Under the pieces are notes generated by a model. The model did not search any database. It was not told where the DNA came from and saw only the letters and a list, made by a program, of their open reading frames with translations. This document shows, piece by piece, positions 9,532 through 27,500 of a stretch of 64,000 nucleotides of DNA (the stretch's first letter is position 1; the number at the start of each line of letters is the position of its first letter). The stretch covers positions 124,001 through 188,000 of the forward strand of contig NZ_FUWY01000002.1 in assembly GCF_900167375.1 (NCBI RefSeq), written 5' to 3'. This stretch comes from Anaerorhabdus furcosa. Lineage in GTDB: Bacteria; Bacillota_I; Bacilli_A; Erysipelotrichales; Erysipelotrichaceae. The translations under genes were made by a program, and so were the position numbers.

Positions 9532-9540
9532 TTAATAAAT

Positions 9541-9660: not shown

Positions 9661-9734
9661 AATTATTTAGTCTACATTTTTATAGGTTTGACTTCATAGA
9701 CCTTGTCAGTTATTATTACATTAAGGAAACCATT

Positions 9735-11261: not shown

Positions 11262-11263
11262 TG

Positions 11264-11658
11264 TTACTCCTTTTCTATGGGATCATCAACGATGATAAGA
11301 TAGAAATAGTCGACAATGCATTCTGTTTCAAGCATTAAATAGGAACTATATCCTTTTACTCGAACATCTATGGCTGGGGGTTACCAACAGCTTCAATCTC
11401 ATAGGTTAAGTTAAGATCCTTATTTTTATTAAAATTGTCAAACCATAACTCCATGGCTTTCTCTTTATCCATGGATAACTTATGGTTAACGATCAGATCA
11501 CCGATATTAATTGAATCTTGGAGAGCAGATAACTGAGTGGTACGTGTTGCATTATAGACATCATCATCCATCATGATTTTCTTGTTATAATCAGCACCAC
11601 TGAATATCACCAAGACAAAAAAGATAAGTAATCCATAAAATGCAATTGCACCACTCAT
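11264..11658 (-). pseudogene. Frameshifted small Tad-locus membrane protein
   Basis: ATG 11658 follows GGAGGT. The first 96 codons give one N-terminal membrane helix and a soluble part ending LTYEIEAVGNPQP at a stop. One base out of frame, the reading continues as AIDVRVKGYSSYLMLETE and LIIVDDPIEKE to a stop at 11264, just before the CpaB-like start. The shift falls at a run of five G (11376-11380 region), a likely one-base slip. I read the original product as about 130 residues with a TadE-like layout (N-terminal helix, then soluble domain). A sequencing error at the run is possible. Confidence 0.6.
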
Positions 11659-11672
11659 TCTTTACCTCCTGT

Positions 11673-11803
11673 TTACGCTAATAATCCATTGAAACTGTCT
11701 AAGATGCCTTGTGTTAATTGAGCCATAAAGTCTCCTTTAGCAAATGCTAAGAAAAAGCAATAACAACAATGACTAGTCCGTATTCTTCGAAAAATGCCTT
11801 CAT
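11673..11803 (-). pseudogene. Frameshifted Flp-type prepilin-like peptide
   Basis: ATG 11803 sits behind a very strong AAGGAGGTG site. The first frame gives MKAFFEEYGLVIVVIAFS and stops. Skipping two bases in the T-run (11752-11756) restores a frame reading LAFAKGDFMAQLTQGILDSF and then NGLLA. The E-Y-G-L followed by a hydrophobic stretch is the hallmark of Flp pilins. The repaired peptide would be about 42 residues. The second frame also has its own AAAGGAG and ATG (17 residues), so two tiny peptides might be made instead. It is first in the broken Tad operon. Confidence 0.5.
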
Positions 11804-12171
11804 TCACTTTCACCTCCTTCTTGTGTGGTTTGCGTATTGATCAACAACAACGCAAAAAAAGTAACGACGTAGTTCTCTTTGTCATTCCTTCTTTTCTGTT
11901 ATTAATTTTATATTTTATTTAGGGTACTGGCTGTAACAATTTGGGGCTAATTCTTCACTTATCATACTAATCATTGTAAAAGCAAATGCAAATTTTAGAG
12001 ATACTTTACTGATAGATTCATCTTTTCACTGTAAAGACTCAAGATTTCAATAAATTTTGATTGCTTACTCGAAGAATTTTTACCATTAATTTTTTTCCGT
12101 ATTCTTTACCTCTTTATTTAGTAATTAGCATTAAATAAGAATAATTCTAAATCAGAATATAATTTAAAAAT
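11804..12171. other. Non-coding AT-rich stretch upstream of the Tad remnant
   Basis: I see no open frame of note and no clear terminator. The part next to 11803 should hold the minus-strand promoter of the Tad remnant, but no convincing -35/-10 pair stands out. The rest is AT-rich spacer. Confidence 0.4.
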
Positions 12172-12633
12172 TTATACTTTATGATTAATGCAATCATGCT
12201 GTATAGATTGTAAAATCTCATATATTTTTCTCAATGAATCTTCCATGTTGTGAGTTAGCTGATCAGAATGCCCTGTTTTGTGTAGTGTATCAAGTATAAC
12301 TTGCATTTTCTCATGTTCATTTATTAATTTTTGCATTTTAACAGAAAATTTTTCAAATAGCTTTTGATTTTGCTGATAATAATAGAATACAGCACAATAA
12401 TCTTCGACAAAATTATTTACAGCATTTACTTGACTTATATCATTACCTGAGGTTTGTAATACCTTCATAAAGGATGAAAGTGCACAATCTATTTTTCTCT
12501 GCAATTCTGACACATAAATACGCCTCTCTCTAGCAATCTGTTGTTTTCTCTCAAACATTTTTTGCAATACAAGAACAACAATTCCATTACATAGAATCGG
12601 AGTAAATAATAGTATCCAATCTTTTGTATTCAT
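12172..12633 (-). CDS. Hypothetical membrane-anchored coiled-coil protein
   Basis: The 153-residue protein has one N-terminal membrane helix (about 7-24) and then a helical, charged body with repeated Gln, Lys and Glu (ERKQQIARERRIY, EHEKMQVILDTLHKTGHSDQ). AAGGAGAT precedes the ATG. No family is recognised. Small anchor-plus-helix proteins of this build are common in phage and plasmid cargo, but that is only context. About 340 bases of empty AT-rich DNA separate it from the next gene on the same strand, so it is probably transcribed alone. Confidence 0.55.
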   Translation of the reverse strand: MNTKDWILLFTPILCNGIVVLVLQKMFERKQQIARERRIYVSELQRKIDCALSSFMKVLQTSGNDISQVNAVNNFVEDYCAVFYYYQQNQKLFEKFSVKMQKLINEHEKMQVILDTLHKTGHSDQLTHNMEDSLRKIYEILQSIQHDCINHKV

Positions 12634-12982
12634 GAATATCTCCTTATAGTATACAAATGAATCATATAATAAAATTTAAAATTGAAAAGTTAAATTGATT
12701 TTATGTTACTATTTAATTTTTATCATCTTAATTGTTATTGCAATTGAATAAGTAGACTTTTTATTGTCCACTTTTATGCTACTAGTTCAATTTATACCTT
12801 CCTTATTAGTCTAATTATTTAGGAGTACTTCAAATTTTACCATTTTTTCTATTTATTGACTTTATATTTCGAATCAAATAATTGCAAAATTATACCGAAT
12901 AAAGTAGAATAATACAATTTTATATAGTATAAAATGAACAATGAGTTGTAACAATAGCACAAAATTTTAATATGAACTACAA
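12634..12982. other. Non-coding AT-rich gap
   Basis: No open frame, tRNA or clear hairpin terminator is visible. Composition is strongly A+T, as in the rest of the 12-20.7 kb cargo. Confidence 0.5.
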
Positions 12983-13918
12983 TTAAAATCTAACATTCAT
13001 TGAAGAGTTCACAAATTTAATATTTTCATAAACTGATGTGGCAAGAAATCTTCTGAAGCTCTCTCTAGCCAACACAATTTCTATCATTGGTGCAAATGTA
13101 ATTTGCTTAAACATCAACTCTTTTTCATTTAAACCAAAGAACCATGTAATAAATGGTGTGATAATTCCACTTTTCCCTACTCGATAATCTAAATTAAAAC
13201 AATTATTTCCATCGAATTTCTCAGGGATTTTCAATACAAATCTATATTCTTTTTCGCTTGAAAATGCTGGGTTTTTAAAAAAAAGTTTCTTTATGTTTAT
13301 GAATTCCTCTATACCTTCTACAAAGTCATTAATCAATCTTCTATCTTCCTTATTTTCATCAAGTAATTCAGTGGACTTATCAAGGTTTTGAAATAGTTCA
13401 TTAAGTTTATTGAAAATTATTTTTCTTTGTTCCAACTCATCATATACAACCTTATCTGAAAGAAGTTCAATATCTAAATTTTGGGAGGAGTTTTCAAAAC
13501 ATTTTTTTAAAGTCGCAATCTCGATTCCTAAATTATAGCCATAGTATGAATTGTTTTTAATATAATAGCTCCACATACTTGAACTATCAAAGTCACTAGA
13601 TGCACATAATACATAGTAACGATATTTCTTGATTGAAAATTCATTATCACCATTTTTGTTCTCTCCAAAAAATAACCGATCTTCTCCAAATCTACTTTGA
13701 AATATTTGGTTTACAAATTTAGGAATCGATATTTCTTCACTTCTATTTCTAAGAATTCTGCAATACTCTTCCTTAAATAAGCGTTCTATATATGAAATTT
13801 CACCTGAGTCATTCAAATATTGGCAATCGGTAAATCTTAATGATTTACTTTTCAGAATTTGATATACTCCTTCTGGTGATGTATAGTGATATACAGTTTC
13901 CGTATTTATATTCTTCAT
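12983..13918 (-). CDS. DUF2971 family protein
   Basis: The 311-residue protein starts VYHYTSPEGVYQILKSKSLR and FTDCQYLNDSGEI, the typical DUF2971 opening (YHYT, then a D-x-x-x-L-N-D motif). Later family marks are CASSDFDSSSMWSYYI and FSSEKEYRFVLKIP. DUF2971 proteins have no proven reaction. The conserved Tyr, Asp, Ser-x-x-W-x-x-Y and E-x-R-F residues recall ADP-ribosyltransferase-like folds, and the family is frequent in phage-defence regions. AGGGAGA precedes the ATG. It is followed after about 200 bases by the DUF4145-like gene on the same strand. Defence or cargo use is an inference from location. Confidence 0.75.
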   Translation of the reverse strand: MKNINTETVYHYTSPEGVYQILKSKSLRFTDCQYLNDSGEISYIERLFKEEYCRILRNRSEEISIPKFVNQIFQSRFGEDRLFFGENKNGDNEFSIKKYRYYVLCASSDFDSSSMWSYYIKNNSYYGYNLGIEIATLKKCFENSSQNLDIELLSDKVVYDELEQRKIIFNKLNELFQNLDKSTELLDENKEDRRLINDFVEGIEEFINIKKLFFKNPAFSSEKEYRFVLKIPEKFDGNNCFNLDYRVGKSGIITPFITWFFGLNEKELMFKQITFAPMIEIVLARESFRRFLATSVYENIKFVNSSMNVRF

Positions 13919-14124
13919 AAGTTCTCCCTACTAATCCTTAGATAGTAATTAATTATTTTTTATTCATCAATATTTTAAAGAAAATAAAAATATGAAATAA
14001 GTACAAATTTTCTGATTTTGCATGCCATTAATTGGAAAACCATTTAAACCTATAATAAATGTTAATAAAAATAATAAAACTTTTCGGGTTTAATATTTTG
14101 CCAACAAACTGAAGCGGGTAAAAC

Positions 14125-15072
14125 TTACTCTTTTATTGCTGATTTGTACATTAACTCTTCAATCAATACTCGAAAATGTAAAATGTTAGTTCGAATATCA
14201 GGCTCAGTACAATTGTACCATATTTTATGTGCAGAAAAATTACCAAGAGTTTTATACTTTTCCATATCTTTTTTACTGCTTGCTGATAGATTAATTATTT
14301 TGCTATTTTGAGCATTTTTGATTATTTTATCGAGAACAATATGACAAGTTCCATCTTGGTTTAGTATCTCATTTTCAATATCAAACTTTTGGAATGTCAA
14401 AATCAATAATATTTCCAATAATCTTCTCATCATTACTGCAGTACAATCAAAAAGATTATTATCGAAACTACAGTTTATTTGCTTACAAACTTTTGCAATA
14501 TATGTTGGACAATTTTCAAACAACGTAGTTGGTAAAATGCAATCAGTATAATTTACCTCTGTTTCATTTCTCTTGTTGTCCCAGTTATTTATTTCTTGTT
14601 CCCACTGTTCCATTCTTTGGAACCAATCAGACCAATTTCTACATTCTTGAATCATTGGGATTAATTCTGAATCAAAATCTCTAATTAAATCTAATTCAGT
14701 GTAGTCCTTTTCTTTTAATGACTTGATATATCTATTCAAGAGTGAACGAGCAATATTTTGATCGTAGTAATTAAAATTAGTTTTAACAATGTTTAACACA
14801 TGTCTTACTTTTGCTTCAACTGGAGACAAATTTTTGTTATAAGCTATTCCACCGATTTTATTTATAAAGTTTTCAACGGAATCTTTTGTAATTTTTCCAT
14901 TAGCATCATATCTGATATAATTAGAAAAACTTGTATCTACACATTCTATAATTAAATCAGTTCCATAATCAGTTTCAAATTTCTTTAATGAAGATTTTCC
15001 TTTTTCGTTTAATGTGTATGGTCTGATTTTTTCTTCAACATAACATATTAAATCGATCTTTTTTTTAGCCAT
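14125..15072 (-). CDS. Hypothetical protein with DUF4145/HEPN-like C-terminus
   Basis: The 315-residue protein is helical throughout. The N-terminal half is unassigned. The C-terminal half has TAVMMRRLLEILLILTF and, later, TLGNFSAHKIWYN. An R-R-L-L-E helix followed by a G-N-x-x-A-H motif is the pattern of DUF4145 proteins, a HEPN-type fold seen beside restriction and defence genes. The His of SAHK and the Arg pair could form the HEPN active site, though the strict R-x4-H spacing is not present, so nuclease activity is uncertain. CGGAGG precedes the ATG. A 30-bp palindrome lies about 100 bases upstream of its start. Confidence 0.55.
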   Translation of the reverse strand: MAKKKIDLICYVEEKIRPYTLNEKGKSSLKKFETDYGTDLIIECVDTSFSNYIRYDANGKITKDSVENFINKIGGIAYNKNLSPVEAKVRHVLNIVKTNFNYYDQNIARSLLNRYIKSLKEKDYTELDLIRDFDSELIPMIQECRNWSDWFQRMEQWEQEINNWDNKRNETEVNYTDCILPTTLFENCPTYIAKVCKQINCSFDNNLFDCTAVMMRRLLEILLILTFQKFDIENEILNQDGTCHIVLDKIIKNAQNSKIINLSASSKKDMEKYKTLGNFSAHKIWYNCTEPDIRTNILHFRVLIEELMYKSAIKE

Positions 15073-15170
15073 AATACCTCCGAAAAGTATATGAGAAGCT
15101 TAGTAATGTAATATTTTCTATTTATAAATTCTATCATATTACAAAGATATTTTAAAAGAATAATTAATTA

Positions 15171-15200
15171 AGCAAATATATATACGTATATATATTTGCT
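15171..15200. repeat. 30-bp perfect palindrome upstream of the DUF4145-like gene
   Basis: AGCAAATATATATAC (15171-15185) is followed directly by its exact reverse complement. It lies 98 bases upstream of the minus-strand start at 15072. It could be an operator or a cruciform-forming site; no regulator is known for it. Confidence 0.7.
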
Positions 15201-15406
15201 TTCAAAGACACAACTTATTGATTAGCAATAAATAGGGATTATCCTAAAATTTTATTAAAAGTCTATTTATTATTTTATTATATTGAACTATTAATAAACA
15301 TAGCGGTTAAGTCTGTTATACATTATAAGTTCACAATCTTAGTTTGTGTTTACAATATACTTTTTCATAGTCTTAATTCATTACATCAATTTGTATCAGG
15401 CGAATA

Positions 15407-16117
15407 TCACTGATATAATACAAGATTTGTTACTATATAACTCGATTCATAGAATGCAGTAGAATCAGTCGGACACAATATTTTAAGAAATTTTCCATAA
15501 TTCAATTCTATATCAAAATCTATCGGATCTGTGCGCATATCTATATCTGGTGATGTGTATATTAGTTCATCATCTATAAATATTGTAATCTTTCCTGACG
15601 ATTCAGTTGTTCCATCATAAAAAGCAATCGTTCCTGTAAGTCTTGAATAACTATTATTTAGATTATATTCAAGAGGCTCAGCATTATATCTATATTTTGA
15701 TGGTTCTATGGGATCTACAGTTCTTTTTCCCAGCACAGCACAAAGTTCAAACGTGTTTCCTAACTTATCTTCACAAGATGTTTTGATTTCTGTATTACCA
15801 CTACTAATAACAAAAGGTTCTAAACTAAGTAATCTCTTAATATAAGGTGTAGGAATAGGAGATGACACTTCTATTGGATTAGTAGTTGGTATAGAGGTAG
15901 TGCTCACAATAGGCGGATTGGTAGACTCAAAATTGATATCATCATCAACTTTATCATTTAGTCTCGTTACAAGGCTTAATAACACATATATTACTAGACA
16001 TACTACTGAAATTATTAGCAATTTCTTTTTTGATTTTTTGGACATCAAAGAAGCAAAAAATGTAACAATTGTGATAGCTATTGAAATATCAGAAAGTAAT
16101 GTTCTCAAAAAATTCAT
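15407..16117 (-). CDS. Membrane-anchored protein with NPCBM-like domain
   Basis: The 236-residue protein has two hydrophobic segments at the N-terminus (about 8-24 and 31-50), then a Ser/Thr/Pro-rich linker (about 62-90). The C-terminal beta domain contains NNSYSRLTGTIAFYDGT, ITIFIDDELIYTSP and DFDIELNYGKFLKILC. The layout matches NPCBM, a putative carbohydrate-binding module usually found on secreted glycosidases. Here it stands alone on a membrane anchor. AAAGGGGAT precedes the ATG. The role is unknown; binding of a wall or surface glycan is the family-based guess. Confidence 0.65.
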   Translation of the reverse strand: MNFLRTLLSDISIAITIVTFFASLMSKKSKKKLLIISVVCLVIYVLLSLVTRLNDKVDDDINFESTNPPIVSTTSIPTTNPIEVSSPIPTPYIKRLLSLEPFVISSGNTEIKTSCEDKLGNTFELCAVLGKRTVDPIEPSKYRYNAEPLEYNLNNSYSRLTGTIAFYDGTTESSGKITIFIDDELIYTSPDIDMRTDPIDFDIELNYGKFLKILCPTDSTAFYESSYIVTNLVLYQ

Positions 16118-16850
16118 AATTATCCCCTTTATTATATGAACTAATTATAACAATTCAAACAGCAATTTAAAAGAATATATAAAACTAGTCTCATCAGTAT
16201 TATGTGTAATTAATAGACTTATATTTTATTTTTATAGTATTTTTTGATAATACTATATGTATTCTTTATTAATTTAATTACATATAAAGTATCCATCTAA
16301 TTGAGTTCATGAGTTTTAAATCACTTACTATTCCTTATTTATCATTGAGCACAGTTTGTCACTAAATATTTATAATCAAATATCCATTCCTTGATGAAAA
16401 CATGTTCTAACTAAAAAATCAGCATAATCTTAATTGTATTAACAATTATCTTATTGTGATGTTTTCCTAATTTTTGAATTTCAATTCTTACTTCATTAGC
16501 GATGCCATTGCTATCAGAACACAGATTTCCTTTTCCATTAATTTTTTATTTAAACTCTCAATAACTGAGTAAAATTTATCAAACTATCTTCTGTTGTATG
16601 CAAAATCAGAAATAGATCTCATTCTTCTCTATTTCTTCTAAATGTTTTAAATTGGAATATAGTAGAATTAATATTTTTTATGAAGTTTATTTCTTTTTTC
16701 TTTAATCTACCTTCATATTTATTTTCCATAAAATAAATAATTAGTTTATCAATAACAAAAACTATCTGTTCATATGACATTTTAATGTTTAACATTAAAA
16801 AATTCTACTATAAGTAGAATTTTAGAGCTTATTTACATTCTCTTTCGTTG
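16118..16850. other. Long AT-rich region without a supported gene
   Basis: About 730 bases without a convincing frame. On the minus strand between 16781 and 16619 short frames read MSYEQIVFVIDKLI and, one frame over, NKYEGRLKKKEINFIKNI. This looks like a gene broken by frameshifts, but it is too short to assign. Confidence 0.4.
16799..16823. repeat. Perfect hairpin beside the small toxin-like gene
   Basis: AAAATTCTACT (16799-16809) and AGTAGAATTTT (16813-16823) form an 11-bp stem with a three-base loop. It lies about 33 bases beyond the stop codon of the minus-strand small gene at 16856. It could serve as that gene's terminator, with U-rich arms on both strands. Confidence 0.55.
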
Positions 16851-16855
16851 GAGTT

Positions 16856-17014
16856 TCACCAACTCATCAGTAAGCTGAGCTTAGAGAAGGAGGTTGCTAG
16901 TAAAGAAGCTAGTTTTGTATATAAATTAATTAAAGTATAAATATTTAGATTCATAAAATCACTCTCCTCATCAACGTAAAAAATCATTATTGACAAGAAA
17001 ATGCCTGTCATCAT
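16856..17014 (-). CDS. Small hydrophobic protein, possible type I toxin
   Basis: A minus-strand frame encodes a membrane segment (TGIFLSIMIFYVDEES) and a second hydrophobic helix (IYTLINLYTKLASLLA). Three things suggest a real gene. A promoter is present (TTTACA at 17093-17098, TATAAT at 17071-17076, 16-base spacer). A GGAGG site lies at 17031-17035. A hairpin follows the stop. The start is uncertain: ATG 17014 is 16 bases from GGAGG, and ATG 16954 has its own GAGGAG and would give 32 residues (MNLNIYTLINLY onward). The mRNA's GGAGGTTGCT near its 5' end is exactly complementary to AGCAACCTCC at 16898-16889 near its 3' end, a feature of type I toxin mRNAs. No antisense RNA promoter was confirmed. 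Confidence 0.35.
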   Translation of the reverse strand: MMTGIFLSIMIFYVDEESDFMNLNIYTLINLYTKLASLLATSFSKLSLLMSW

Positions 17015-17213
17015 CAGAACCAGTAAGCAACCTCCGGTTAACAAATTAAAAAATTTGTTTCGACACTATAATTATAATCATTTCTCTAGAAATGTAAAGT
17101 TTATAACATTTTCTTATAGATTATCAAGTTAAATTGGACAGTGAAAGAAAACATAAATGAAATATAATGGAAATAAGAGATGATTTGTGATGGTCTTGAA
17201 AGGAGGTCATTTT

Positions 17214-17650
17214 ATGACTGGCACAAATAAACATTTAACTTACGATGATCGTCTTCAACTGTTATCTTTTGTTTCTAAGAATTATAGTATGTGTAAGATT
17301 GGAATGATTTTAGGTAAATCACCTTCTTCTGTTTCTCGCGAATTAAAAATCAATCGTTATCGTAAACGGGTCAATGACAATGATACCTTATGTACGCATG
17401 CTCGTACTTGTCCAAGTATTAAACGCGGTTGCAGTCAAACCTGTAAGCTTTATTAACTTGAACCTTGCCCTCGTTTATTAAAAGTACCTTGGATTTGTTT
17501 GGGTTGTTCTCGTTATACCACCTGTCACAAGAGTAAAATTCTTTATGATCCTAAAAAGACTCAACTCCGTTATGAAGACGTCTTACATACTTCTCGCTTA
17601 GGTCACTCTGTTTCTCAAGACGGACTCCACTTTAGAAACTTATCTTAATC
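17214..17650 (+). pseudogene. IS30-family transposase remnant
   Basis: ATG 17214 follows AAAGGAGG. The frame reads HLTYDDRLQLLSF, then the HTH KIGMILGKSPSSVSRELKIN and a Cys-rich part, as in IS30 transposases. It hits TAA at 17454, but the same frame continues past it with CLGCSRYTTCHKSKILYDP and LGHSVSQDGLHFRNL before ending near 17650. The DDE catalytic region is absent. The bases after it (about 17655-17720) include GTGCATGTAGGGGTT, which resembles the right end of IS30 elements. An internal deletion of a full copy is therefore likely. Confidence 0.75.
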
Positions 17651-17779
17651 ATATAAAAAGCTAAATCTCGAGATACATCGATGATTGTTTTGGTGCATGT
17701 AGGGGTTATTAATTCATCTCATTACAAATAAACTACATTTTATTAATATATTCGTGTGCAGTACTTTGTTTGCTAGTGT

Positions 17780-18640
17780 TTAAAAACTATTAAGTATAGC
17801 TTTTTGGCGAATATATAAACTTTCATTTTCATCTAAGTGTTTTTCAATTGTTTCTGTGCTTTGTAAGGTTAATTTACCAACTTCCCAGATATAATTTCCT
17901 TTTTTCAAACTCATTTTTATAAAAGTATTACCTAAATCAGTGAGTTTATATTTTCTTCCTGTTATCTCCTTTATTTTATTACTTACTACCGTGCTTATCT
18001 CATTTTCACCATAACAACTTAGTTTTGATAAACCTTTTTCAACGGGATTTGTTCTTAAATACTCATATATCAACAATTGTAATTCCATCTTTAATGGAAG
18101 AATTACTTCCATATTTTCCTTATCTTCCCAGAGTCTCAAATCATAAACTCCTCTATTATATATAAAACTTGAATTGGTTATTGAATTAATGTATTTCCTA
18201 CTTAATCCTGAAAATATAAGTAATCCAAATATTAGTCTTATATTTATTTTGTCCTCACTGAATATATAGTCTTTTACTTTTTCTATGTCTTCATCGCATA
18301 AATATTTATGTTCTTTTCTTTGAATAATTGGTTTATCTACTTGTGTCATGACATCTATGCATTCATTAGTTACGTAAGCGAAATGAAAAAATGATTTTAA
18401 TGCATTATAATAATTCATCTTTTCACTTTCTTTACCATTGAAGCGTTCGGATAAAAATCTATTAACGATATCATATGTTATTGCATCTAACCTAGTATTT
18501 TTATATTGTTCAGTATTCATAAATTCATCAAAAAAAATATTTATTCTTTGCATGTAGAATGTTTTGCTACTTTCTTTCATATTATTGTACTCTATTAGCT
18601 CATTTATTAGTTTTGAAACTTTAGTTTTATCTATATACAT
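17780..18640 (-). CDS. Tyrosine-recombinase-like protein lacking catalytic residues
   Basis: The 286-residue protein has the two-domain plan of phage integrases: an N-terminal SAM-like core-binding region (about 5-100) and a C-terminal domain (about 110-270). The catalytic positions are changed. The first Arg box (normally G-L-R) reads SGLSRKY at 144-150. The H-x-x-R box reads LTDLGNTF at 233-240, with Gly in place of Arg. The segment that should hold the Tyr reads LTLQSTETIEKHL at 257-269, with no Tyr. It should therefore not cut DNA, though it could bind it. The reading frame is intact and has AAAGGGAT before the ATG, so selection for a non-catalytic role is plausible. It lies 72 bases downstream of the 667-residue HEPN protein gene. 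Confidence 0.7.
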   Translation of the reverse strand: MYIDKTKVSKLINELIEYNNMKESSKTFYMQRINIFFDEFMNTEQYKNTRLDAITYDIVNRFLSERFNGKESEKMNYYNALKSFFHFAYVTNECIDVMTQVDKPIIQRKEHKYLCDEDIEKVKDYIFSEDKINIRLIFGLLIFSGLSRKYINSITNSSFIYNRGVYDLRLWEDKENMEVILPLKMELQLLIYEYLRTNPVEKGLSKLSCYGENEISTVVSNKIKEITGRKYKLTDLGNTFIKMSLKKGNYIWEVGKLTLQSTETIEKHLDENESLYIRQKAILNSF

Positions 18641-18712
18641 ATGTAATCCCTTTCTTATATTTTTAATCCAATATTTTGATTGCTACTTTATTAGCATTTA
18701 ACTGAACAGTAA

Positions 18713-20716
18713 TCAACATTCTTCCTTTTCTTTTAAGCAAAAGTCGTCGTTAATTTTGATAATAATCATAATGAATAACCTAGTTAGCTTCATATAATTC
18801 GAATAATCGATATCCGCATTTGGTTTATAACTTCCATGAATATATCTGTTTCTAAGTTGAAATCCATTGCAAAATTTTCTATTGTTCAAATAAAAATCTA
18901 AATAATCCGCCTCTTGTTCAGAAAATAGAGTACTTGTTAATGTAAAATACTGTTTTTCTATCAAATTATCAATCAATTCTCTTTGCATTTCACTATGATG
19001 CCAATATACCAAAAATTCATTTTTATAAAGATCAAGCATTATTAATATTTCTTGAATATTTCTAAATTTTATTGTATCTTGATTAGTAAGAATAATTACT
19101 TCAGATTTCAATAAAAAATCAATTTTATCTAACTCATACTTAGAGATATCACTGATTTTAACTTCTTCATTAAAAATTAAATCAAAAAAATTACCATATT
19201 TTTCTTCGAATTTTTCAGTATATGCTAGCATACACTGATTAGAGAACAGGCAATAAAATAAAAAATTAGTCTTCTCTTCATTTTGATATATGTATTTCTT
19301 TTTAACTAAACTTTTAACATTTTTAAATGTAGGAACACTTGATGAAATCGTCAATAATTCGTAATCGATACAGCCATCTTCCACAAAGAGATTAAATTCT
19401 TTTATACATCGGTCTATTTCAGTTGCTATGATTTTACATTTATTGCAATATAATGATTCTTCATTCGACATTGTTATATTAAAGTTTTCCACTTGAAATT
19501 CATCTTTTAAATACGTCTCAAAAAACCATTCTATGATTCTTTCCATCTTTATATTCTTATTTTCTAAATAGCTAGTATATAATTGCATTTGAAAATCTGC
19601 GGTTGTGTTCAATAACTTGAAAGCTAAATTTGTCTTATAGTCGCTTATTGTTCGAATTGTTATAATACTTTCAAAAGTACCTATTTGTGTTTTTTTACTA
19701 ATTAAACTCCATCTCATTTGACTGTCGCAGAATAGGAAAAGAGTATAAAAGTTTTGTAATAGAGTATTATAATCTAAATTTTCATCTATCCAATTTGCAT
19801 TATATAAAAATTTCCATTCGTTTGGATTATCACTAATTATTACAGCATCTCCATTAAAATGTTCAAATTTGATTTCAATATTATTCTTTATTGTTGTTTC
19901 TCCATTAAATAATAATGTTTCTAACTCTTGCATTCTTTTTAAAATCTTCGATTTAGCTCTATCACTAACTTTCAGTTTCTTACTATCTGTTCTATATAAT
20001 ACTTGTAAATAGCCTAGGTTGTGCTCCTTTCTCTCCAAATATTCATTTATAATTTGATCAATGTCTTTTTTTGTCAATGATTTTGGAAAATAGGTTTTTT
20101 TTCTTTCAATAGTGTGTTCAATTGCAAACTGATTTAAGAGTAACTTAATGCTACATTCACTTATTAATAGCGAGTTTTTTAATGGTATATCATAATACTT
20201 CACAAGAGTATCATTTTTTAATAATTCAGATAGGTATATCTCTTCTGCGATTGCAATTTCATAGATAATTTGTGAATCTATTTTTCTATAAATATTGTAA
20301 CTTGAGAATAATTCAAAAAAGTCCTCAATATATATTTTTTCAGTTTGTTCTAAATAATTTTTCAAATTTGAATTGTCAATTTGCTTAAGAAGGTTATCAA
20401 TTATTTGATTTATATTATTTGATTCATAATACCACAAATCAACTACTTCGATATCATATCTTTTGATTAAATCATCGTTAAAGTATTTCTTTACATTATG
20501 TAATTCTAAAATTAAATTAATATCAAGACTTACTTCTGATTTATCGAATTTTTCGAGATATCTAACTATTTTTTTCAAATAATATCCAATGCTTAAATCT
20601 TGATTACTATAAAATTTTATTCTTCCCATTCTCGTATTCTCTTCTATGAAAGTATTATAATCAACAGATAAATAAATTTGTGTTCTATATTTTCTTCTTA
20701 TTGATGTGTTTATCAT
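18713..20716 (-). CDS. Large protein with C-terminal HEPN-type R-x4-H motif, family unknown
   Basis: I do not recognise the family of this 667-residue protein. It is rich in Asn, Ile, Lys and Glu, mainly helical, with no membrane segment. A single C-x2-C (SLYCNKCK, near 420) is visible. Near the C-terminus GFQLRNRYIHGSY holds R622-x4-H627, the catalytic signature of HEPN ribonucleases; it is flanked by helices, as in ApeA and similar defence proteins. No ATPase motif is seen. The chosen ATG has no clear ribosome site; M30 (MGRIKFYSNQ) is an alternative. It is next to the attachment remnant at 20830 and upstream of the dead recombinase gene on the same strand. A nuclease effector in a two-gene system is an inference. 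Confidence 0.6.
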   Translation of the reverse strand: MINTSIRRKYRTQIYLSVDYNTFIEENTRMGRIKFYSNQDLSIGYYLKKIVRYLEKFDKSEVSLDINLILELHNVKKYFNDDLIKRYDIEVVDLWYYESNNINQIIDNLLKQIDNSNLKNYLEQTEKIYIEDFFELFSSYNIYRKIDSQIIYEIAIAEEIYLSELLKNDTLVKYYDIPLKNSLLISECSIKLLLNQFAIEHTIERKKTYFPKSLTKKDIDQIINEYLERKEHNLGYLQVLYRTDSKKLKVSDRAKSKILKRMQELETLLFNGETTIKNNIEIKFEHFNGDAVIISDNPNEWKFLYNANWIDENLDYNTLLQNFYTLFLFCDSQMRWSLISKKTQIGTFESIITIRTISDYKTNLAFKLLNTTADFQMQLYTSYLENKNIKMERIIEWFFETYLKDEFQVENFNITMSNEESLYCNKCKIIATEIDRCIKEFNLFVEDGCIDYELLTISSSVPTFKNVKSLVKKKYIYQNEEKTNFLFYCLFSNQCMLAYTEKFEEKYGNFFDLIFNEEVKISDISKYELDKIDFLLKSEVIILTNQDTIKFRNIQEILIMLDLYKNEFLVYWHHSEMQRELIDNLIEKQYFTLTSTLFSEQEADYLDFYLNNRKFCNGFQLRNRYIHGSYKPNADIDYSNYMKLTRLFIMIIIKINDDFCLKEKEEC

Positions 20717-20829
20717 ATCATTTGTTATCTAATAATAGCAAATTTTTGCTTACTAATTTATAAAATTCAATAATGAATAATAACTCAAGGTTAAATACTC
20801 ATAAATACCATTGCATATCCTTAGACACA

Positions 20830-20883
20830 ACTTAGGATCTAGCGCCTTCGTGCGTGGGGGTTCGAGTCCCTTCACCCGCACCA
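20830..20883 (+). other. Displaced 3' end of tRNA-Leu (attachment-site remnant)
   Basis: ACTTAGGATCTA (20830-20841) is identical to the anticodon-loop segment of the tRNA at 9045-9056. It continues as the variable arm, T-arm (GGTTCGA), acceptor strand CACCCGC and ACCA of a tRNA-Leu. The 5' half is missing. Its TCTAG pairs perfectly with CTAGA of the intact gene's anticodon stem, better than that gene's own TCTAA. This marks it as the original 3' half, pushed 11.7 kb away by integration. Confidence 0.85.
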
Positions 20884-20887
20884 AGAT

Positions 20888-20930
20888 AAGTTGACAGGTT
20901 TTCAAAAGAAAATCTGTCAACTTTTCCTTT
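20888..20930 (+). terminator. Original tRNA-Leu terminator
   Basis: AAGTTGACAG pairs with CTGTCAACTT, the inner TTTTC/GAAAA extends the stem, and TTTTCCTTT follows. It begins five bases after the displaced CCA end and so looks like the ancestral terminator of the tRNA gene. Confidence 0.8.
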
Positions 20931-21036
20931 ATTTATGCGGGTTTCAAGGGTTTTGGCGTTTATTGAGAATGAAGAACAGGATTTGAACTAACACGCAAAA
21001 CAGCATATTCCTAAAAATTTAATGAACAAAATGGTG

Positions 21037-21070
21037 ACACGATGGTCTTACATAGACTGTCGTGTTTTTT
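21037..21070 (+). terminator. First of two tandem terminators before the recombinase genes
   Basis: ACACGA...TCGTGT with inner GTCT/AGAC forms a stem followed by a six-T run. Confidence 0.65.
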
Positions 21071-21090
21071 AACTTTGGGCAAAATTATGG

Positions 21091-21122
21091 GCACAGTGGC
21101 TTGATAGCTGCTGTGCTTTTTT
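21091..21122 (+). terminator. Second tandem terminator before the recombinase genes
   Basis: GCACAG pairs with CTGTGC around an inner TGGC/GCTG stretch, followed by six T. The recombinase gene at 21156 starts 34 bases later. Confidence 0.65.
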
Positions 21123-21155
21123 AATATAAAATTATAATACAAGGAGAATGAGACG

Positions 21156-21647
21156 ATGAATAAAACAAAAAGCGAGTACATCACCGAAGGGTTAAGAAAA
21201 TCCTTTCAAGACACAAGTTGCAAAATGGCAAACCGAATTTGCTACGGCTACACAGTAGCGAAAAATGGTGAACTGGTTATCAATCCCACGGAAGCTGAAA
21301 TAGTAAGATTTATTTTTGCAAGCTACAATAAAGGAGATAGCTTAGGCAAAATTGCTAAGCAGTTGGGGGCAAAACAAATTCTATCGCCCACCGGCAAATC
21401 AAAATGGAATCGTGAGGCAATCTCTAAACTTCTCTCTAACGAAAAATATGTTGGAAATGTAATGCTGCAAAAGACACATAGCTTTTGTGGTATTCAGTTT
21501 GAAAACGAGGGTGAACTTGCCAAGGTACTAATGAAAAATCATCACCCTGCTATTATCAGTCTTGATGAATTTGCAAAAACTCATCAGTTAAAATCAGAAC
21601 GAGCAAAGGCACCAAAAGAAGAATTAATCATGACTGCAACTTTTTAG
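21156..21647 (+). CDS. Serine-recombinase-related protein without catalytic domain
   Basis: The 163-residue protein consists of the Recombinase (DNA-binding) domain of large serine recombinases: CYGYTVAKNGELVINPTEAE, SLGKIAKQLG, SPTGKSKWNREAISKLLSNE and NHHPAIISLDEF. The N-terminal resolvase domain with the nucleophilic Ser is absent. A good ribosome site (AAGGAG) and ATG suggest this short form is a real gene product rather than a cut fragment. Small partners of this type occur in front of full-length serine recombinases in clostridial mobile elements. It is followed after 11 bases by the next recombinase gene, with GGAGG between them, so the two are co-transcribed. Confidence 0.75.
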   Translation: MNKTKSEYITEGLRKSFQDTSCKMANRICYGYTVAKNGELVINPTEAEIVRFIFASYNKGDSLGKIAKQLGAKQILSPTGKSKWNREAISKLLSNEKYVGNVMLQKTHSFCGIQFENEGELAKVLMKNHHPAIISLDEFAKTHQLKSERAKAPKEELIMTATF

Positions 21648-21658
21648 GAGGTAGTGAT

Positions 21659-22561
21659 GTGAGCAAAGAGGTAACTTTTATTCCGGCAACAAAAACGATT
21701 ATAGGTACGGAGCTGTCACAGATTTTAAATGTGGCGGCATATTGCCGAGTGAGTAGTCAAAGTGATGAGCAGTATGGCAGCTTAGAAGTGCAGAAAAGCT
21801 ATTATACGGACTACATCAATGATAACCCTGGTTGGAGAAATATAGGCGTTTATGCCGAAACAGGCACAGGTAGAAATATTAAAAAGCGAGCAGAATTTAA
21901 AAAGTTACTTACCAAATGTCGCAAGCATAAAGTGGATATGATTATTACAAAATCGATTAGCCGATTTTCAAGAAATACCATTGGTGCGTTGGAGGTATGC
22001 CGAGAGCTTCGATTGTTGGGCGTTGAGGTTCTATTTGAAAAGGAAAACTTAAAACTATCAGATCCTGAAACGATGATGGAGTTGGAAATTGCTTGCGCTT
22101 TGGCACAGGAGGAAATCCATAGCCACAGTCTAAATATTAAAATGGGGCTTCGCCATGGGTTTCAGGAGGGTATATCCGGCTATATGGATTTTACTTGCTA
22201 CGGATATAAGCAAGGTAAGAATGGTCTTAAAATTGATAAGAAGCAAGCGAAAGTCATTAAAATGATTTTCGAGATGAGAGCTGATGAAAAAAGCTTAGGT
22301 GAAATCTCTAAAACCCTACTCAAAAAGAAAATCCCCTCTCCAACGGGTAAACCTACTTGGAGCAGAGAAACACTGAGTAAACTATTGAAAAATGAGAAGT
22401 ATATTGGTGTAGTTCTATTGCAAAAAACTTATGTGGAAGATTATCTACAAGGTAAGCAGTTGAGAAATGATGGTCAATTACAGCAAGTGCTTGTGAGAAA
22501 TCATCATCAGGCGATTGTTAGTGAAGACATGTTTTATCAAATTAATAGTGAAAGCAACTAA
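21659..22561 (+). CDS. Large serine recombinase, C-terminally short
   Basis: The protein starts at GTG 21659, seven bases after AGGAGG; an ATG two bases earlier would stop at once. Residues 25-150 are a resolvase domain with the nucleophilic Ser in AYCRVSS and the Arg-rich KSISRFSRNT. Residues 170-300 form the Recombinase domain (CYGYKQGKNGLKIDKKQAK, SPTGKPTWSRETLSKLLKNE, NHHQAIVSEDMF). It ends at 300 residues, whereas full members usually have 450-550 with a zinc ribbon and coiled coil. Those parts are missing here, so its activity is doubtful. It probably moved the higher-GC segment that carries the nuclease operon. Confidence 0.8.
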   Translation: MSKEVTFIPATKTIIGTELSQILNVAAYCRVSSQSDEQYGSLEVQKSYYTDYINDNPGWRNIGVYAETGTGRNIKKRAEFKKLLTKCRKHKVDMIITKSISRFSRNTIGALEVCRELRLLGVEVLFEKENLKLSDPETMMELEIACALAQEEIHSHSLNIKMGLRHGFQEGISGYMDFTCYGYKQGKNGLKIDKKQAKVIKMIFEMRADEKSLGEISKTLLKKKIPSPTGKPTWSRETLSKLLKNEKYIGVVLLQKTYVEDYLQGKQLRNDGQLQQVLVRNHHQAIVSEDMFYQINSESN

Positions 22562-22578
22562 AATTAATTATATATTCA

Positions 22579-22607
22579 TTGAAGTAACTGTCGATATTTG
22601 GTATAAT
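22579..22607 (+). promoter_or_regulatory. Promoter of the small leader RNA before the defence operon
   Basis: TTGAAG (22579-22584) and TATAAT (22602-22607) are spaced by exactly 17 bases. It lies just after the recombinase stop codon and points at the leader hairpins. Confidence 0.75.
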
Positions 22608-22612
22608 TAGTT

Positions 22613-22692
22613 AACGGAAGGCTTTGAAGCCTGCAAAAATAATATGAACTACAACGCTAACCGTTCAAGGGTATCCTTGTGCGGTTTTTTGT
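22613..22692 (+). ncRNA. Short structured leader or sRNA ending in a terminator
   Basis: Starting about six bases after the -10 box, the transcript would hold a tight hairpin (AGGCTT, TG, AAGCCT at 22619-22632). After an unpaired stretch comes a strong terminator: AACCG/CGGTT outside and CAAGG/CCTTG inside (22659-22686), then T residues to 22690. It would be about 80 bases long and end about 140 bases before the ATPase gene. It could attenuate the downstream operon or act alone. I do not recognise it as a known RNA family, and no reverse transcriptase is near, so a retron is not supported. Confidence 0.5.
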
Positions 22693-22834
22693 TAGGTTCT
22701 AATAATAGCAATTAGAGGAAGTTTATATTTCAGAAAGCCAATGGCCATAAGTGAAGTAACCAAACGGCGATACTATAAGAACTACGTCAACATTTGCTTT
22801 AGGACAAGCCAGCCTATATAGATGGAGGATAGTC

Positions 22835-24733
22835 ATGTGTAAAGAATTAATATATATTTGGATCAATCAGGATGCCAACGGATGTTTTCATCAAATGGGC
22901 TTTAACTTTTCGCCCATATTTGATATTTCTTTCGATATTACTCAAAGGGTGTTGTGCATAAGCGAAACGAGAGATATTAATATTTTTCGCCAAAACAACT
23001 TGCTTAACGTTACCGCAATTATAGGTGAAAACGGGACCGGGAAAACTACATTGCTGCAATATCTCACTTCACTTTCTAATATGCCTTTTTCAGAAGCAAA
23101 ACAGAGATACGAAACCTGGCAAGAACATCAAAATGCGCTGGGAGAATTCATCGCTGTTTATTCCGAAGGAGACACCCACAACATTAAGATAATCAATAAT
23201 ACTGTGGAAAAAATTAGCTTGCATGGAGAGGAGATTCATCCATATAGTGGGGATGAGTTTCGGGCTGAAAACTATATTGGAAATATTTCGCACATATACA
23301 TATCAAACAGTGAATATACATCAAACCTAAATATGCGTTCAGAAGCTGTTGATTATATTTCACTTACAAATGGTGCGCTAAAGCCGCTTTTTTCTGATTT
23401 TTTTAAATCAATTTTTAATGCTCCTCTTGGACTTATCGCCGACACGGCATTTAATGCCCTTCAACTTATTTTTTCAAATAAGTTGAGTTCGAAAAAAATA
23501 CAAGTATTATTAGACTTAATGTATCAAGACTATATCTGTACGAACAAGAAAGACTTGTGCGGGAAAAAGGTTGACACTGTTTCTTTTTCAATAGATCATA
23601 TATTAAGAACAATCCCGGATGAAGAACAACAGGCTAATTATACCACCAAGTTTTCTGAGAAAGCGCATATAAACGCATTTCATAAAGCGGCCTGTATTGA
23701 GTTAAGGAAACTCTCTCTGAATAATGGAAATGAAGAAAACTTAGTTGTTAATCTTATCTGTGAATTAGTCTTTTCATATAAATTTCAACTGCAAGGAGAA
23801 TGGCTTACACTGGAAGAAGCGTTTTCTCAATGCACTGAGTATATTAGTAATATTACAGACGAAGGTCAAAAAAGTTACTATTTATTTGCCATTGAAGAAA
23901 TAAAGGCATTATCCGCTCTTGTTGCCGAAAGCGACAGGTTAGATAATTTCCTGCCGAAAGGTGACCTCGGGAGACGGGAATTCTTTTCTACAGGAATACA
24001 AAAGCTTTGGAGAATTATCAAAAATAGCATTGAAACAAGAAAATCATTTGTGCTGAAGTACGTAAGCGTTATTGATTTGGAAATGTCATCTGGTGAAAGA
24101 GCACTATTAAATTTCACCTCAAGAATATATTTTTCTTCTAAAATTGAGTGGTTTATGGGTGGTAACGGATTTAAATTTAACGAAAATGTACTGCTGCTCA
24201 TTGATGAAATTGACTTGTATCTTCACCCAGAATGGCAGCGGCGGATACTCCGTGATTTAATAAACGAGTTGAAACAAAATTTTGAAGGACATAGCTTTCA
24301 AATAATACTGTCGAGTCATTCGCCGATTGTTTTGTCAGATATTCCCTGCAAAAACTCAATCTATCTAAAGCGCAAAAATGCGACAGATCCAGTATTTCAA
24401 GTGCCACACAATGCGCAGACCTTTGGGGCTAACATTCACACGCTGTATCAGGACGCTTTCTTTATAAAAAACGGCTTAGCTATGGGCGAGTATGCAAAAC
24501 AGTATGTTAATCAACTGCTAATTGATGTGCGAGAAGGTCGGTATACTGGAGACGAAGCTAAAAAGCGAATTGCTCTGATTGGTGAACCCATTATTCGAAA
24601 AAAATTACTTCAAGTTGCTGGTCAGCCTATGCCTGAGGAACTACCCGCTCCGGAACGACAGCAAATGATTGACTTTTTAAAGCGGCAGAAATTAGAAATT
24701 GAACGACAGCTTGAAATGCTTGAAAGGCGGTAA
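22835..24733 (+). CDS. AAA/ABC-type ATPase, PtuA-like (Septu-type defence)
   Basis: The 632-residue ATPase has Walker A IIGENGTGKTTLLQY (about 62-76), a long helical insert, an ABC-like signature MSSGERAL (about 416-423), Walker B VLLLIDEIDLYLHPEWQ (about 452-468) and the switch His in LSSHSPIVLS (about 495). This is the OLD/RecF-type layout of PtuA, the ATPase of Septu systems and of the retron-linked PtuAB pair. No TOPRIM domain follows. GGAGG lies before the ATG. The HNH nuclease gene starts five bases after its stop, so the two are translationally linked. The C-terminal 50 residues are charged and helical and may contact the nuclease. Assignment to Septu rests on gene pairing and motifs. 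Confidence 0.78.
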   Translation: MCKELIYIWINQDANGCFHQMGFNFSPIFDISFDITQRVLCISETRDINIFRQNNLLNVTAIIGENGTGKTTLLQYLTSLSNMPFSEAKQRYETWQEHQNALGEFIAVYSEGDTHNIKIINNTVEKISLHGEEIHPYSGDEFRAENYIGNISHIYISNSEYTSNLNMRSEAVDYISLTNGALKPLFSDFFKSIFNAPLGLIADTAFNALQLIFSNKLSSKKIQVLLDLMYQDYICTNKKDLCGKKVDTVSFSIDHILRTIPDEEQQANYTTKFSEKAHINAFHKAACIELRKLSLNNGNEENLVVNLICELVFSYKFQLQGEWLTLEEAFSQCTEYISNITDEGQKSYYLFAIEEIKALSALVAESDRLDNFLPKGDLGRREFFSTGIQKLWRIIKNSIETRKSFVLKYVSVIDLEMSSGERALLNFTSRIYFSSKIEWFMGGNGFKFNENVLLLIDEIDLYLHPEWQRRILRDLINELKQNFEGHSFQIILSSHSPIVLSDIPCKNSIYLKRKNATDPVFQVPHNAQTFGANIHTLYQDAFFIKNGLAMGEYAKQYVNQLLIDVREGRYTGDEAKKRIALIGEPIIRKKLLQVAGQPMPEELPAPERQQMIDFLKRQKLEIERQLEMLERR

Positions 24734-24738
24734 TTACA

Positions 24739-25656
24739 GTGATTAGAATTCCGCCAATAAGCGACTTTTGTAAAAGCGAATATCTGAAAGACACTCTTCC
24801 TGCTTTCAAGCAATTCCTGAATTCTGTAAAGAATAATCCGGATTATGAAAAAGAAATCGGCTATCTCAACAATGGCGAGGAACTCGATGATGAAAAAATT
24901 TCAGATCTTTTAGTTGGAAACATATCAAAGCTGGAAGATGCAATAACAGAAATCGGCACAATACAGCCAAGACGTGAAAATGACGGCTTTCATAGGTTGT
25001 ACGAAAACTTTACAAAAAGGAAGCTGGGTAAAACATGGGCAGAGAAGATAGGCGTCTCGATTTGCCCATATTGTAATAGAAGTTATATTTTCACGCTTAA
25101 AAAATCTGGGGTACGCCCACAATACGACCACTTTTTCCCAAAATCCCTATATCCATATCTTGCATTATCAATGTATAATCTTATTCCATGTTGTGCTATA
25201 TGTAACCAAGCAAAGAGAGATTTTAATACATTTAACACTGAAACACACAGCGCCAATTTTATATACCCCCACACGGATTCTTATGGAGATAGAATTAAAT
25301 TTGACATTTCTATAGAAGACGACATATTCGCCTTGCTTGGTAGCTCAAATAATTTTGAGATTGATATCTTAGGACTTGATGGTGATGCTGGACAAAATGC
25401 GCAAAAAGCAGCTGAGACATTAAATCTACGGGAACTCTATAACAAACATATTGATTATGTTCAGGACATTATTAAAACTACCTACATCTATGATGATAGT
25501 TACCTTCAGAGTCTCTCAGAAACATTTCCTGATTTTTTTAAGAGTCCAGAGGAAGCCGCAAATTTGGTGTACATGAATTTTTTGAACGAAGAAGACTGGG
25601 ACAAACGCATTCTGTCAAAGTTGACCCACGATATTAAGTTAGAATTTCAAAAATAG
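24739..25656 (+). CDS. HNH endonuclease, PtuB-like
   Basis: The 305-residue protein starts at GTG 24739, directly behind the ATPase stop. Its nuclease core spans about 105-165: CPYCNRS (C109, C112), QYDHFFPKS (D130, H131), N147 in MYNLIPCC, and CAICNQAKRDF (C152, C155, N156, K159). Two Cys pairs to hold zinc with a D-H and an Asn make a complete HNH/bba-metal site. The N-terminal 100 residues are helical and the C-terminal 140 residues may be the ATPase-binding part. In Septu the HNH subunit cuts DNA under control of PtuA. This is longer than typical PtuB, so it may be a subtype. Confidence 0.8.
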   Translation: MIRIPPISDFCKSEYLKDTLPAFKQFLNSVKNNPDYEKEIGYLNNGEELDDEKISDLLVGNISKLEDAITEIGTIQPRRENDGFHRLYENFTKRKLGKTWAEKIGVSICPYCNRSYIFTLKKSGVRPQYDHFFPKSLYPYLALSMYNLIPCCAICNQAKRDFNTFNTETHSANFIYPHTDSYGDRIKFDISIEDDIFALLGSSNNFEIDILGLDGDAGQNAQKAAETLNLRELYNKHIDYVQDIIKTTYIYDDSYLQSLSETFPDFFKSPEEAANLVYMNFLNEEDWDKRILSKLTHDIKLEFQK

Positions 25657-25749
25657 AATTAAACCGATCTGATGTTAGACAGTCAATAAAGCATCAGCTG
25701 TGCAGTTTATTTAATAAGCCATAATCTACAGATGAAATGAGGAAATTTA

Positions 25750-26898
25750 ATGGTAAAAGGAGTCATTTTCTTCAAGGAAGGTGAAATTCCATTCGTAATT
25801 GATGATTATCGTATGGAACTGTTTACAGATAACAGTCTGCTGAAGGATTTTTCAAAGGAATATAATTTTAAGACAAATTATATTCTTCAGGGGCAATGCT
25901 TTTGTAACGGTTTCCAAGGACAAAAATCAACTTTCCTTGTAGAACAATCTATGGGGAGCACCTGCTATTTGCGTTGCTATATCATTAACATGCTTACGCA
26001 TGAAGATGGATATGACGCCATAGGTATTCAATCACCCTTCCTCGATGACATTTTCAGGTACAAATATAAATACTTGGACATGGTCAGAGCCGGTTCCAAT
26101 TTGGCAGTAGAGCCAAAAGATGTATACACAGTACCGTTTTCTATGAGTGATAGACAATATGAAGTGAAGTTCCGTATAGGACATGATAATCGGCTTGGCC
26201 TTTTGGAAGACTTTAATAGGAAGGGAGAACTACTGCTCTCGCTTCAAACTAATGACATACAGGAGTGCTATGATATTTCTGTGGTTTTTTATCGATTTGC
26301 AATGTTTATGATGTCCCATGCAGATGTCCCTTTAAAACTGATTACCTTGTATAAAAGGGGATTAAAAGCAGGCTGGTTTTATTGTCCTTTAATTTCGGAT
26401 AAAGCATCCTCGTGCCAGGATGGGTTCTTCCATGAACTTGACGTTATGAAATATGTCCCCAAAATCTTGAATAACATAGCATTAGATTCGGGAAATAAAA
26501 TAACGCAAAGTGTACCGTTAGGACATTTGGGAAATGTTGATTCGATGTTTTCTCCACAACGGTTTGTGGAACAGGTTATGGCATTTGAGTATTTGTTCGA
26601 TAAACTGGATCATATAAAAGCTCAGAATTCTAAATTTACCCTAAAAGACGAGTTGATGTATATGTTCAACCAATTTCCGCAATTGTTATCAAACCATAAA
26701 ATGTCTTCGGAGAAAGTCAGCGAGCAAATTAAGGAAATTAGGCGCACTATTGCCCATGGATACGCATATTACTATGATTTCAAAAGTGATCCTAACACGC
26801 AGTATTTGATTATCCTCTTGGACAAGTTAATCAGGAATATGAGTTTGCTGTGTATTGGATTTGCAAAGGATGAAATTGAGCAATGCCCTTTATATTAA
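25750..26898 (+). CDS. ApeA-like HEPN protein
   Basis: The 382-residue protein has a beta-rich N-terminal half (about 1-170), like the N-terminal domain of ApeA. A helical C-terminal HEPN domain carries EIRRTIAHGYAYYY near 331-344, with an R-x4-H active-site motif. ApeA is a known abortive-infection ribonuclease that acts alone. Here the gene follows the HNH gene by 93 bases on the same strand, with its own ribosome site (GAGGAAA) and no visible terminator between them. It may belong to the same operon or be a second, stacked defence gene. Base composition matches the ATPase and HNH genes, so all three probably arrived together. Confidence 0.68.
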   Translation: MVKGVIFFKEGEIPFVIDDYRMELFTDNSLLKDFSKEYNFKTNYILQGQCFCNGFQGQKSTFLVEQSMGSTCYLRCYIINMLTHEDGYDAIGIQSPFLDDIFRYKYKYLDMVRAGSNLAVEPKDVYTVPFSMSDRQYEVKFRIGHDNRLGLLEDFNRKGELLLSLQTNDIQECYDISVVFYRFAMFMMSHADVPLKLITLYKRGLKAGWFYCPLISDKASSCQDGFFHELDVMKYVPKILNNIALDSGNKITQSVPLGHLGNVDSMFSPQRFVEQVMAFEYLFDKLDHIKAQNSKFTLKDELMYMFNQFPQLLSNHKMSSEKVSEQIKEIRRTIAHGYAYYYDFKSDPNTQYLIILLDKLIRNMSLLCIGFAKDEIEQCPLY

Positions 26899-27052
26899 GC
26901 AAGGGCGTAATGTTAATTTGAAAACAACAACACTGTATTTCTAGAATAGGTAACTTTTGAGCTGCGCCTAATGTTTATACCACCGTGATAGTTCAAATCC
27001 CTCATCAAAAATGAGAGGATAACATTAATACGCAGACTACTCAGTTGCATAT

Positions 27053-27078
27053 AAAACGGCTTAATTAAGCCGTTTTTT
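27053..27078. terminator. Second copy of the element-end terminator
   Basis: AAAACGGCTT, AATT, AAGCCGTTTT and extra T residues, identical in the stem to 9109-9132. Here no tRNA precedes it. It faces the end of the integrase remnant that terminates at 27154. Confidence 0.8.
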
Positions 27079-27131
27079 TCATATTCATCAGTATTGATAA
27101 AAACTAGGATATCTTCCACTATTTTGGAGTT

Positions 27132-27183
27132 GTACCTCCGCTGTACCGCCGATTTACCGCATCTGTACCTCCATTGTACCTCC
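27132..27183. repeat. Cluster of TACCTCC repeats over the integrase stop codon
   Basis: TGTACCTCC occurs three times and TGTACCGCC once within 52 bases, with TTACCGC as a degenerate copy. They are spaced at roughly one to two helical turns. The copy near 9.2 kb keeps three of them. Repeats of this kind at the end of an integrase gene are candidates for arm-type integrase or Xis binding sites. Confidence 0.5.
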
Positions 27184-27500
27184 TAACTGCTCAATCTCTG
27201 CTTGTTCAGGGATTGTTTCATATGCTCTCTCAATTAACTTTGAGGTGATTACTTTGTTATGATAGCTATAATGGGTGTAAATACTTGTGGTAGTGGATAG
27301 GGTAGAATGTCCTAACCATTCCTGTATATCCTTTAAGTTTGCGCCTAAGTTTAGAAGACGAGTTGCTATTGTCTTGTGATAAATAAGCACAACTTGATTT
27401 TCCTTTATGTTGATTCAGTCTAAATTTAATTTTGCTAATCGTTGATAATACCTCCACTCAATTAATTCTTTATTAGAAGGGAAGTTATGAACTGAATCTA
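27154..27500 (-). pseudogene. Tyrosine integrase remnant (C-terminal part)
   Basis: The open part (27154-27390) reads HKTIATRLLNLGANLKDIQE, WLGHSTLSTTTSIYTHY and ends MEVQMR. It keeps the integrase boxes H-x-T, L-G-H and the nucleophilic Tyr in T-T-x-I-Y-T-H. The Arg of the H-x-x-R box is lost, since the part before HKT reads LIY. Upstream, another frame reads NKELIEWRYYQRLAKLNLD and then stops, so the N-terminal half is deleted or shifted. It is a close relative of the shorter remnant at 9199. Confidence 0.75.

Follow-up and report, generated by a model that had tools for sequence, protein, structure and literature searches.

Three consecutive genes, coding for an ABC-type ATPase, an HNH nuclease and a HEPN protein, occupy positions 22835-26898 of the stretch of 64,000 nucleotides from Anaerorhabdus furcosa analysed here (hereafter, the window), and raise the question of whether they constitute one defence system or two. 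The original prediction considered two stacked systems, or one composite system in which DNA cutting and RNA cutting share a trigger. The counts of gene linkage described below support the former possibility: two separate, independently mobile defence modules probably lie side by side at a tRNA-Leu island. The attractive composite-system reading is thus corrected, as the neighbour of the HEPN gene appears to be a separate two-gene system.

A higher-GC island at tRNA-Leu

The three genes differ in composition from the other window genes tested, with a GC content of 36-37% (GC3, 34-39%) vs. 24-34% (GC3, 13-21%) in the latter. As anticipated, they form a consecutive group on one strand, of raised GC, behind two serine-recombinase genes, both of which turned out to be partial. 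The first of these (21156-21647, + strand, 163 aa) contains the Recombinase domain only (PF07508, 1.2e-19), and the second (21659-22561, +, 300 aa), from a large serine recombinase, contains the Resolvase (PF00239, 8.1e-25) and Recombinase (PF07508, 7.4e-22) domains and then stops. The latter is 42% identical to a 416-aa recombinase found beside another ATPase-HNH pair of the same family as that of the window, carried by a prophage-like contig (L013, 212-4767; L014, 2976-7531), where the pair is cargo beside the large serine recombinase and downstream of an amidase-like gene. A scan of viral contigs with the ATPase found nothing.

The left edge of the higher-GC island bears the 3' half of a heterologous tRNA-Leu (20830-20883, +), probably the scar of an attachment site; it shares 76% identity with the corresponding part of the intact tRNA-Leu (9014-9098) and is the only copy in the genome within two mismatches. 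The right edge is occupied by a terminator and the copy of an integrase 3' end (27053-27225), 82-86% identical to the copy beside the intact tRNA-Leu (9109-9270), together with a 78-aa C-terminal fragment (27154-27390, −) that, by reading of its sequence, appears to derive from a tyrosine integrase. At 17.9 kb from the unit formed by tRNA-Leu, terminator and integrase 3' end (9014-9270), its diverged second copy (27053-27225) is a sign of repeated integration. Repeated integration at tRNA-Leu may have built the whole 9014-27225 stretch, with the higher-GC segment (approximately 20884-27225) as one such event.

Between the second recombinase gene and the ATPase gene there is a noncoding leader of 273 nt (22562-22834), in which a promoter-like match and, ahead of T-rich sequence, a short hairpin were noted; neither an Rfam match nor similarity to the fetched loci was found for it. 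The promoter-like match (22579-22607, +) is of the sigma-70 type with an extended -10 element, and the region contains no more matches of this kind than expected by chance. Other elements were observed outside the island. A near-full-length match to PDC-S56, a single-gene defence candidate of PADLOC, was found at 18713-20716 (−; 3.3e-195), adjoining a tyrosine-recombinase-like ORF (17780-18640, −). Two hammerhead-ribozyme-like matches of types III and II (16843-16885 and 16999-17065, both −) lie 114 nt apart in a stretch without long ORFs; they keep the CUGAUGA and GAAA core, with scores (33 and 31.5 bits) under the Rfam gathering scores.

Identity of the ATPase-HNH pair and of the HEPN protein

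The ATPase gene (gene 1; 22835-24733, +) encodes a PtuA-like protein of 632 aa, and the HNH nuclease gene (gene 2; 24739-25656, +), with a GTG start 5 bp past gene 1, one of 305 aa. The complete motifs predicted for a PtuA-like ATPase and HNH pair are indeed present: Walker A (GENGTGKT), signature (SSGER) and Walker B (LLLIDEIDLYLHPEW) in the ATPase, and the HNH site (CPYC...DHFFPK...YNLIPCCAICN), with four zinc-type cysteines, in the nuclease. The ATPase matches AAA_21 (9.7e-18) and AAA_15 (4.6e-15) of Pfam, and the PDB sequences matching it are mostly PtuA or retron ATPases; the Pfam HNH match of the gene 2 product is sub-threshold (18.5 bits vs. 21.4). Near-full-length profile matches were obtained with the PADLOC candidate system PDC-M62, whose M62A profile matches residues 4-594 of the ATPase (1.3e-68) and whose M62B profile matches residues 52-304 of the HNH protein (7.4e-67). 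Both genes of this system are present, adjacent on one strand, in the same order and with its spacing (5 bp), and nothing essential distinguishes them from it. On profile grounds, genes 1 and 2 are hence a complete, Septu-like PDC-M62 pair.

Septu and the PtuAB of retron I-A likewise have an HNH nuclease downstream of an ABC-type ATPase, and local PtuA and PtuB matches exist in the window pair, but they are far weaker than those of PDC-M62 (best PADLOC matches of 3e-23 for PtuA and 2.2e-10 for PtuB, local only), and canonical Septu (PtuAB) was consequently rejected. The retron reading was rejected as well: no reverse transcriptase was found among the island ORFs, there is no Rfam match there, and the NCBIfam equivalog cut-offs for retron PtuA and PtuB are widely missed (68 of 500 and 20.9 of 150, respectively). 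Many PDC-M62 calls coincide with Septu calls of DefenseFinder (PMC11811056), and for this reason “Septu-like” is a fair term for genes 1 and 2, and “canonical Septu” is not. Of the profile comparisons suggested beforehand (Septu, ApeA and retron PtuAB), that with ApeA sustained kinship (see below), and those with canonical Septu and the retron did not.

The HNH subunit had been considered longer than usual for PtuB, which holds with respect to the PtuB profiles (213-250 positions); compared with PDC-M62B (328-401 positions), its length is ordinary or short. Its proposed role as a DNA cutter proved unsafe: tRNA-Tyr is depleted or cleaved during infection by the PtuAB of retron-Eco7 and of a related Septu (PMC11555353; PMC13096335), so that DNA cutting by the HNH protein is not to be assumed. 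By analogy with Septu and retron PtuAB, the ABC-type ATPase of the PDC-M62 module would sense infection and license the HNH nuclease, which may then cut nucleic acid, whether tRNA or DNA.

The HEPN gene (gene 3; 25750-26898, +) starts 93 bp past gene 2 and encodes a divergent ApeA-type protein of 382 aa with a C-terminal HEPN motif (R331-x4-H336). Its product has no match in PADLOC, and none above noise in Pfam or NCBIfam. Nine relatives (65-72% identity) were found in a scan with one genome per species, in Clostridia such as Pseudoflavonifractor, Anaerostipes, Gemmiger or Ruminiclostridium. Wider sampling of the family (392 + 345 + 378 genomes) returned already known members only, and no homologues were found on plasmids, phages or viral contigs. 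Two weak matches (L011 and L012) were discarded as chance, one being a coiled-coil-like protein and the other a frame with three stops. The family is uncatalogued and, as judged by scans with short exact peptides, which miss distant members, rare.

An ApeA-like HEPN protein had been predicted here, and profile evidence bears this out. PF18739 (HEPN_Apea) is matched by four of the eight family members (best, 2.6e-6; the window protein alone gives no match), and hhalign aligned the family with nine ApeA proteins over 337 columns (P 85.4, E 5.8e-6), HEPN motif region included, with probabilities ≤1.2 in the controls (reversed and eight column-shuffled). The R-x4-6-H catalytic motif of ApeA is found throughout the intact family (8/8), R331 and H336 being invariant in its eight intact members, window copy included. 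The structure model of the whole protein is poor (pLDDT 61.8), with strands predicted in the N-terminal half and helices in the C-terminal half. Foldseek retrieved nothing at E≤0.001, either with this model, too poor for a fold search, or with that of the C-terminal part; VIA-align with the low-confidence model of the C-terminal half placed HEPN proteins at the top (Z 5.0-5.5), unrelated helical proteins following close behind. The gene 3 product is classified from its sequence profiles as a divergent member of the ApeA type. It shares with ApeA (PF18739, with ApeA-NTD1) the profile similarity, the C-terminal HEPN motif and, as far as low-confidence models go, a predicted beta-rich N-terminal region, and differs in its length (vs. 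445-474 aa for the ApeA proteins compared), in staying under Pfam detection, and in the ties of its relatives to restriction operons, whereas the eight plasmid ApeA loci examined have no annotated adjoining R-M genes.

Changing neighbours of the HEPN gene

The neighbourhood of the HEPN gene is diverse among its relatives. HsdS is encoded directly upstream, on the same strand, in three of them, at 6 nt (L004), 9 nt (L008) and 17 nt (L010, with a truncated HEPN gene), and an HsdS remnant (3e-10) lies upstream in the HsdR locus of L005. The directly upstream, same-strand gene encodes McrC in L009 (33 nt; HEPN gene frameshifted), KwaB in L006 (34 nt) and a DUF4143 ATPase in L002, where a type IIG-like methyltransferase follows 56 nt downstream; the HEPN gene is solo in L003 and L007. 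In L003, the HsdS-like tail upstream was of insufficient length to be counted and was not recovered in the search for HsdS remnants; the same search revealed no hsdS remnant ahead of the window HEPN gene. In L006, methyltransferase, HsdS, KwaA, KwaB and HEPN genes form a single one-strand run (557-6175), the Kiwa pair sitting between the restriction operon and the HEPN gene. A tRNA-Leu-like sequence lies approximately 4.4 kb upstream of the HEPN gene in L009.

A position directly behind hsdS in 3/9 relatives would be very unlikely by random placement, since few hsdS genes exist among the few thousand genes of a genome. In the family tree, the contexts with hsdS or its remnant are spread over two distinct clades, and the window copy has a branch to itself; the link with restriction loci is thus old, and neighbours were swapped more than once. 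The GC content of the HEPN gene remains at 34.5-38%, although that of the loci ranges over 31-53%, a pattern to be expected if the gene moves. Its dN/dS is 0.07-0.16 where dS is unsaturated, in comparisons that involve copies standing alone or next to a remnant, and the gene remains intact under purifying selection even with a decayed neighbour or none.

R-M operons with HEPN genes have been known since 2013, when at least 16 HEPN clades were linked to R-M systems, ApeA proteins were noted within R-M operons of epsilonproteobacteria, and a PrrC-like second-line role was proposed for HEPN proteins linked to R-M (Anantharaman et al., 2013; PMC3710099). The family described here fits that description of R-M-linked HEPN proteins, and adds to it a small uncatalogued ApeA-like subfamily with changing neighbours. 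The same survey posed the question of whether restriction-linked HEPN RNases are guards or an autonomous second line (PMC3710099); as the HEPN gene occurs with HsdS, McrC, KwaB or PDC-M62 neighbours, or with none, it offers a natural comparison between both possibilities.

The HEPN protein is probably an autonomous abortive-infection RNase, whose gene has repeatedly settled at the 3' ends of restriction operons. Infection is probably sensed by the predicted beta-rich N-terminal region, which would also keep the C-terminal HEPN RNase inactive; once triggered, the protein would cut RNA and stop growth (abortive infection). In other genomes the gene lies mostly behind restriction or other defence genes, where it would probably serve as a second line on failure of the first one. 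Autonomy is favoured over guarding because the HEPN gene is found intact and under selection with its neighbour reduced to a remnant or absent, and because the neighbours are mutually unrelated. The closeness of hsdS in the relatives makes coupling to a partner plausible, weakening the term “autonomous.” A broader proposal, which we consider doubtful, is that of a roving ApeA-type HEPN module attaching itself to the 3' ends of front-line defences as unrelated as type I and type IV restriction, Kiwa and PDC-M62, and serving as a general backstop, its trigger being front-line failure or a shared infection signal, and not one particular cognate partner.

Guarding would instead imply that a partner complex restrains the HEPN protein, and that phage inhibition of this partner frees it, as in PrrC/EcoPrrI (a type I R-M system with a HEPN anticodon nuclease); in the window, PDC-M62 would have replaced the R-M partner. 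The short distances to hsdS (6-17 nt in three relatives) recall this system, as do the positions behind the hsdS remnant of L005, mcrC and kwaB; a published PrrC locus lists HsdR, HsdS, PrrC and HsdM together (PMC11555353), and such a role was proposed for R-M-linked HEPN proteins by Anantharaman et al. (2013; PMC3710099). However, a toxin that needs its partner for inhibition should not survive the decay or loss of the latter, and intact HEPN genes are found in loci where the partner is missing or only a remnant (L003, L005, L007). A common inhibitory interface is also hard to picture for partners as mutually unrelated as HsdS, McrC, KwaB and the HNH protein. Furthermore, the gene 3 product has no ABC ATPase domain of the PrrC kind (no ATPase match was found in it), and no R-M gene adjoins it in the window. 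Guarding is accordingly regarded as improbable.

Linkage between the pair and the HEPN gene

The conservation of the three-gene order was evaluated in 13 independent PDC-M62 loci, namely the prophage-like contig mentioned above (L013/L014, counted once), three plasmids (L045-L047) and nine genomes (L048-L056) drawn from a 391-genome sample, and in the nine HEPN relatives, both being small samples. The ATPase adjoins the HNH gene in all 13 PDC-M62 loci, with ORFs split or duplicated in a few. Searches of these loci with the HEPN-family HMM and with an ApeA HMM (nine proteins) gave no ORF match at E≤1, and the HEPN gene, absent from 13/13 loci, therefore falls outside the sampled PDC-M62 system. 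Reciprocally, PDC-M62 was found beside none of the nine HEPN relatives. The three-gene order is hence not conserved (0/13 and 0/9), and of the two arrangements put forward in the original prediction, that of two stacked systems gains support, while the composite system with a common trigger does not.

In such a composite system the ATPase would be a common sensor, and the HNH and HEPN nucleases would both be its effectors. The single strand, the 5-bp and 93-bp gaps and the like GC of the three genes are in its favour, and so is the lack of promoter or terminator matches in the gap between genes 2 and 3 (25657-25749, 93 bp). A promoter and terminator there had been expected to speak against one system, and a consensus scan detected neither a promoter-like nor a terminator-like site, so that co-transcription of, or read-through across, both genes is possible. 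Nonetheless, read-through alone does not make one system, and with the HEPN gene missing from every other PDC-M62 locus, and PDC-M62 missing beside every HEPN relative, the composite system was rejected as highly improbable. The reading of two separate modules leaves room for local coupling, as genes 2 and 3, which share strand, GC and island, may be co-transcribed and interact here.

It is hardly credible, finally, that gene 3 is a passenger, whether non-catalytic or in decay, coding for a HEPN-fold RNA-binding protein that was left behind in a defence island: the family is rare and two of the nine relatives are broken (L009 by a frameshift, L010 by truncation), but every intact member keeps R-x4-H unchanged, dN/dS is approximately 0.1, and the window copy is full length.
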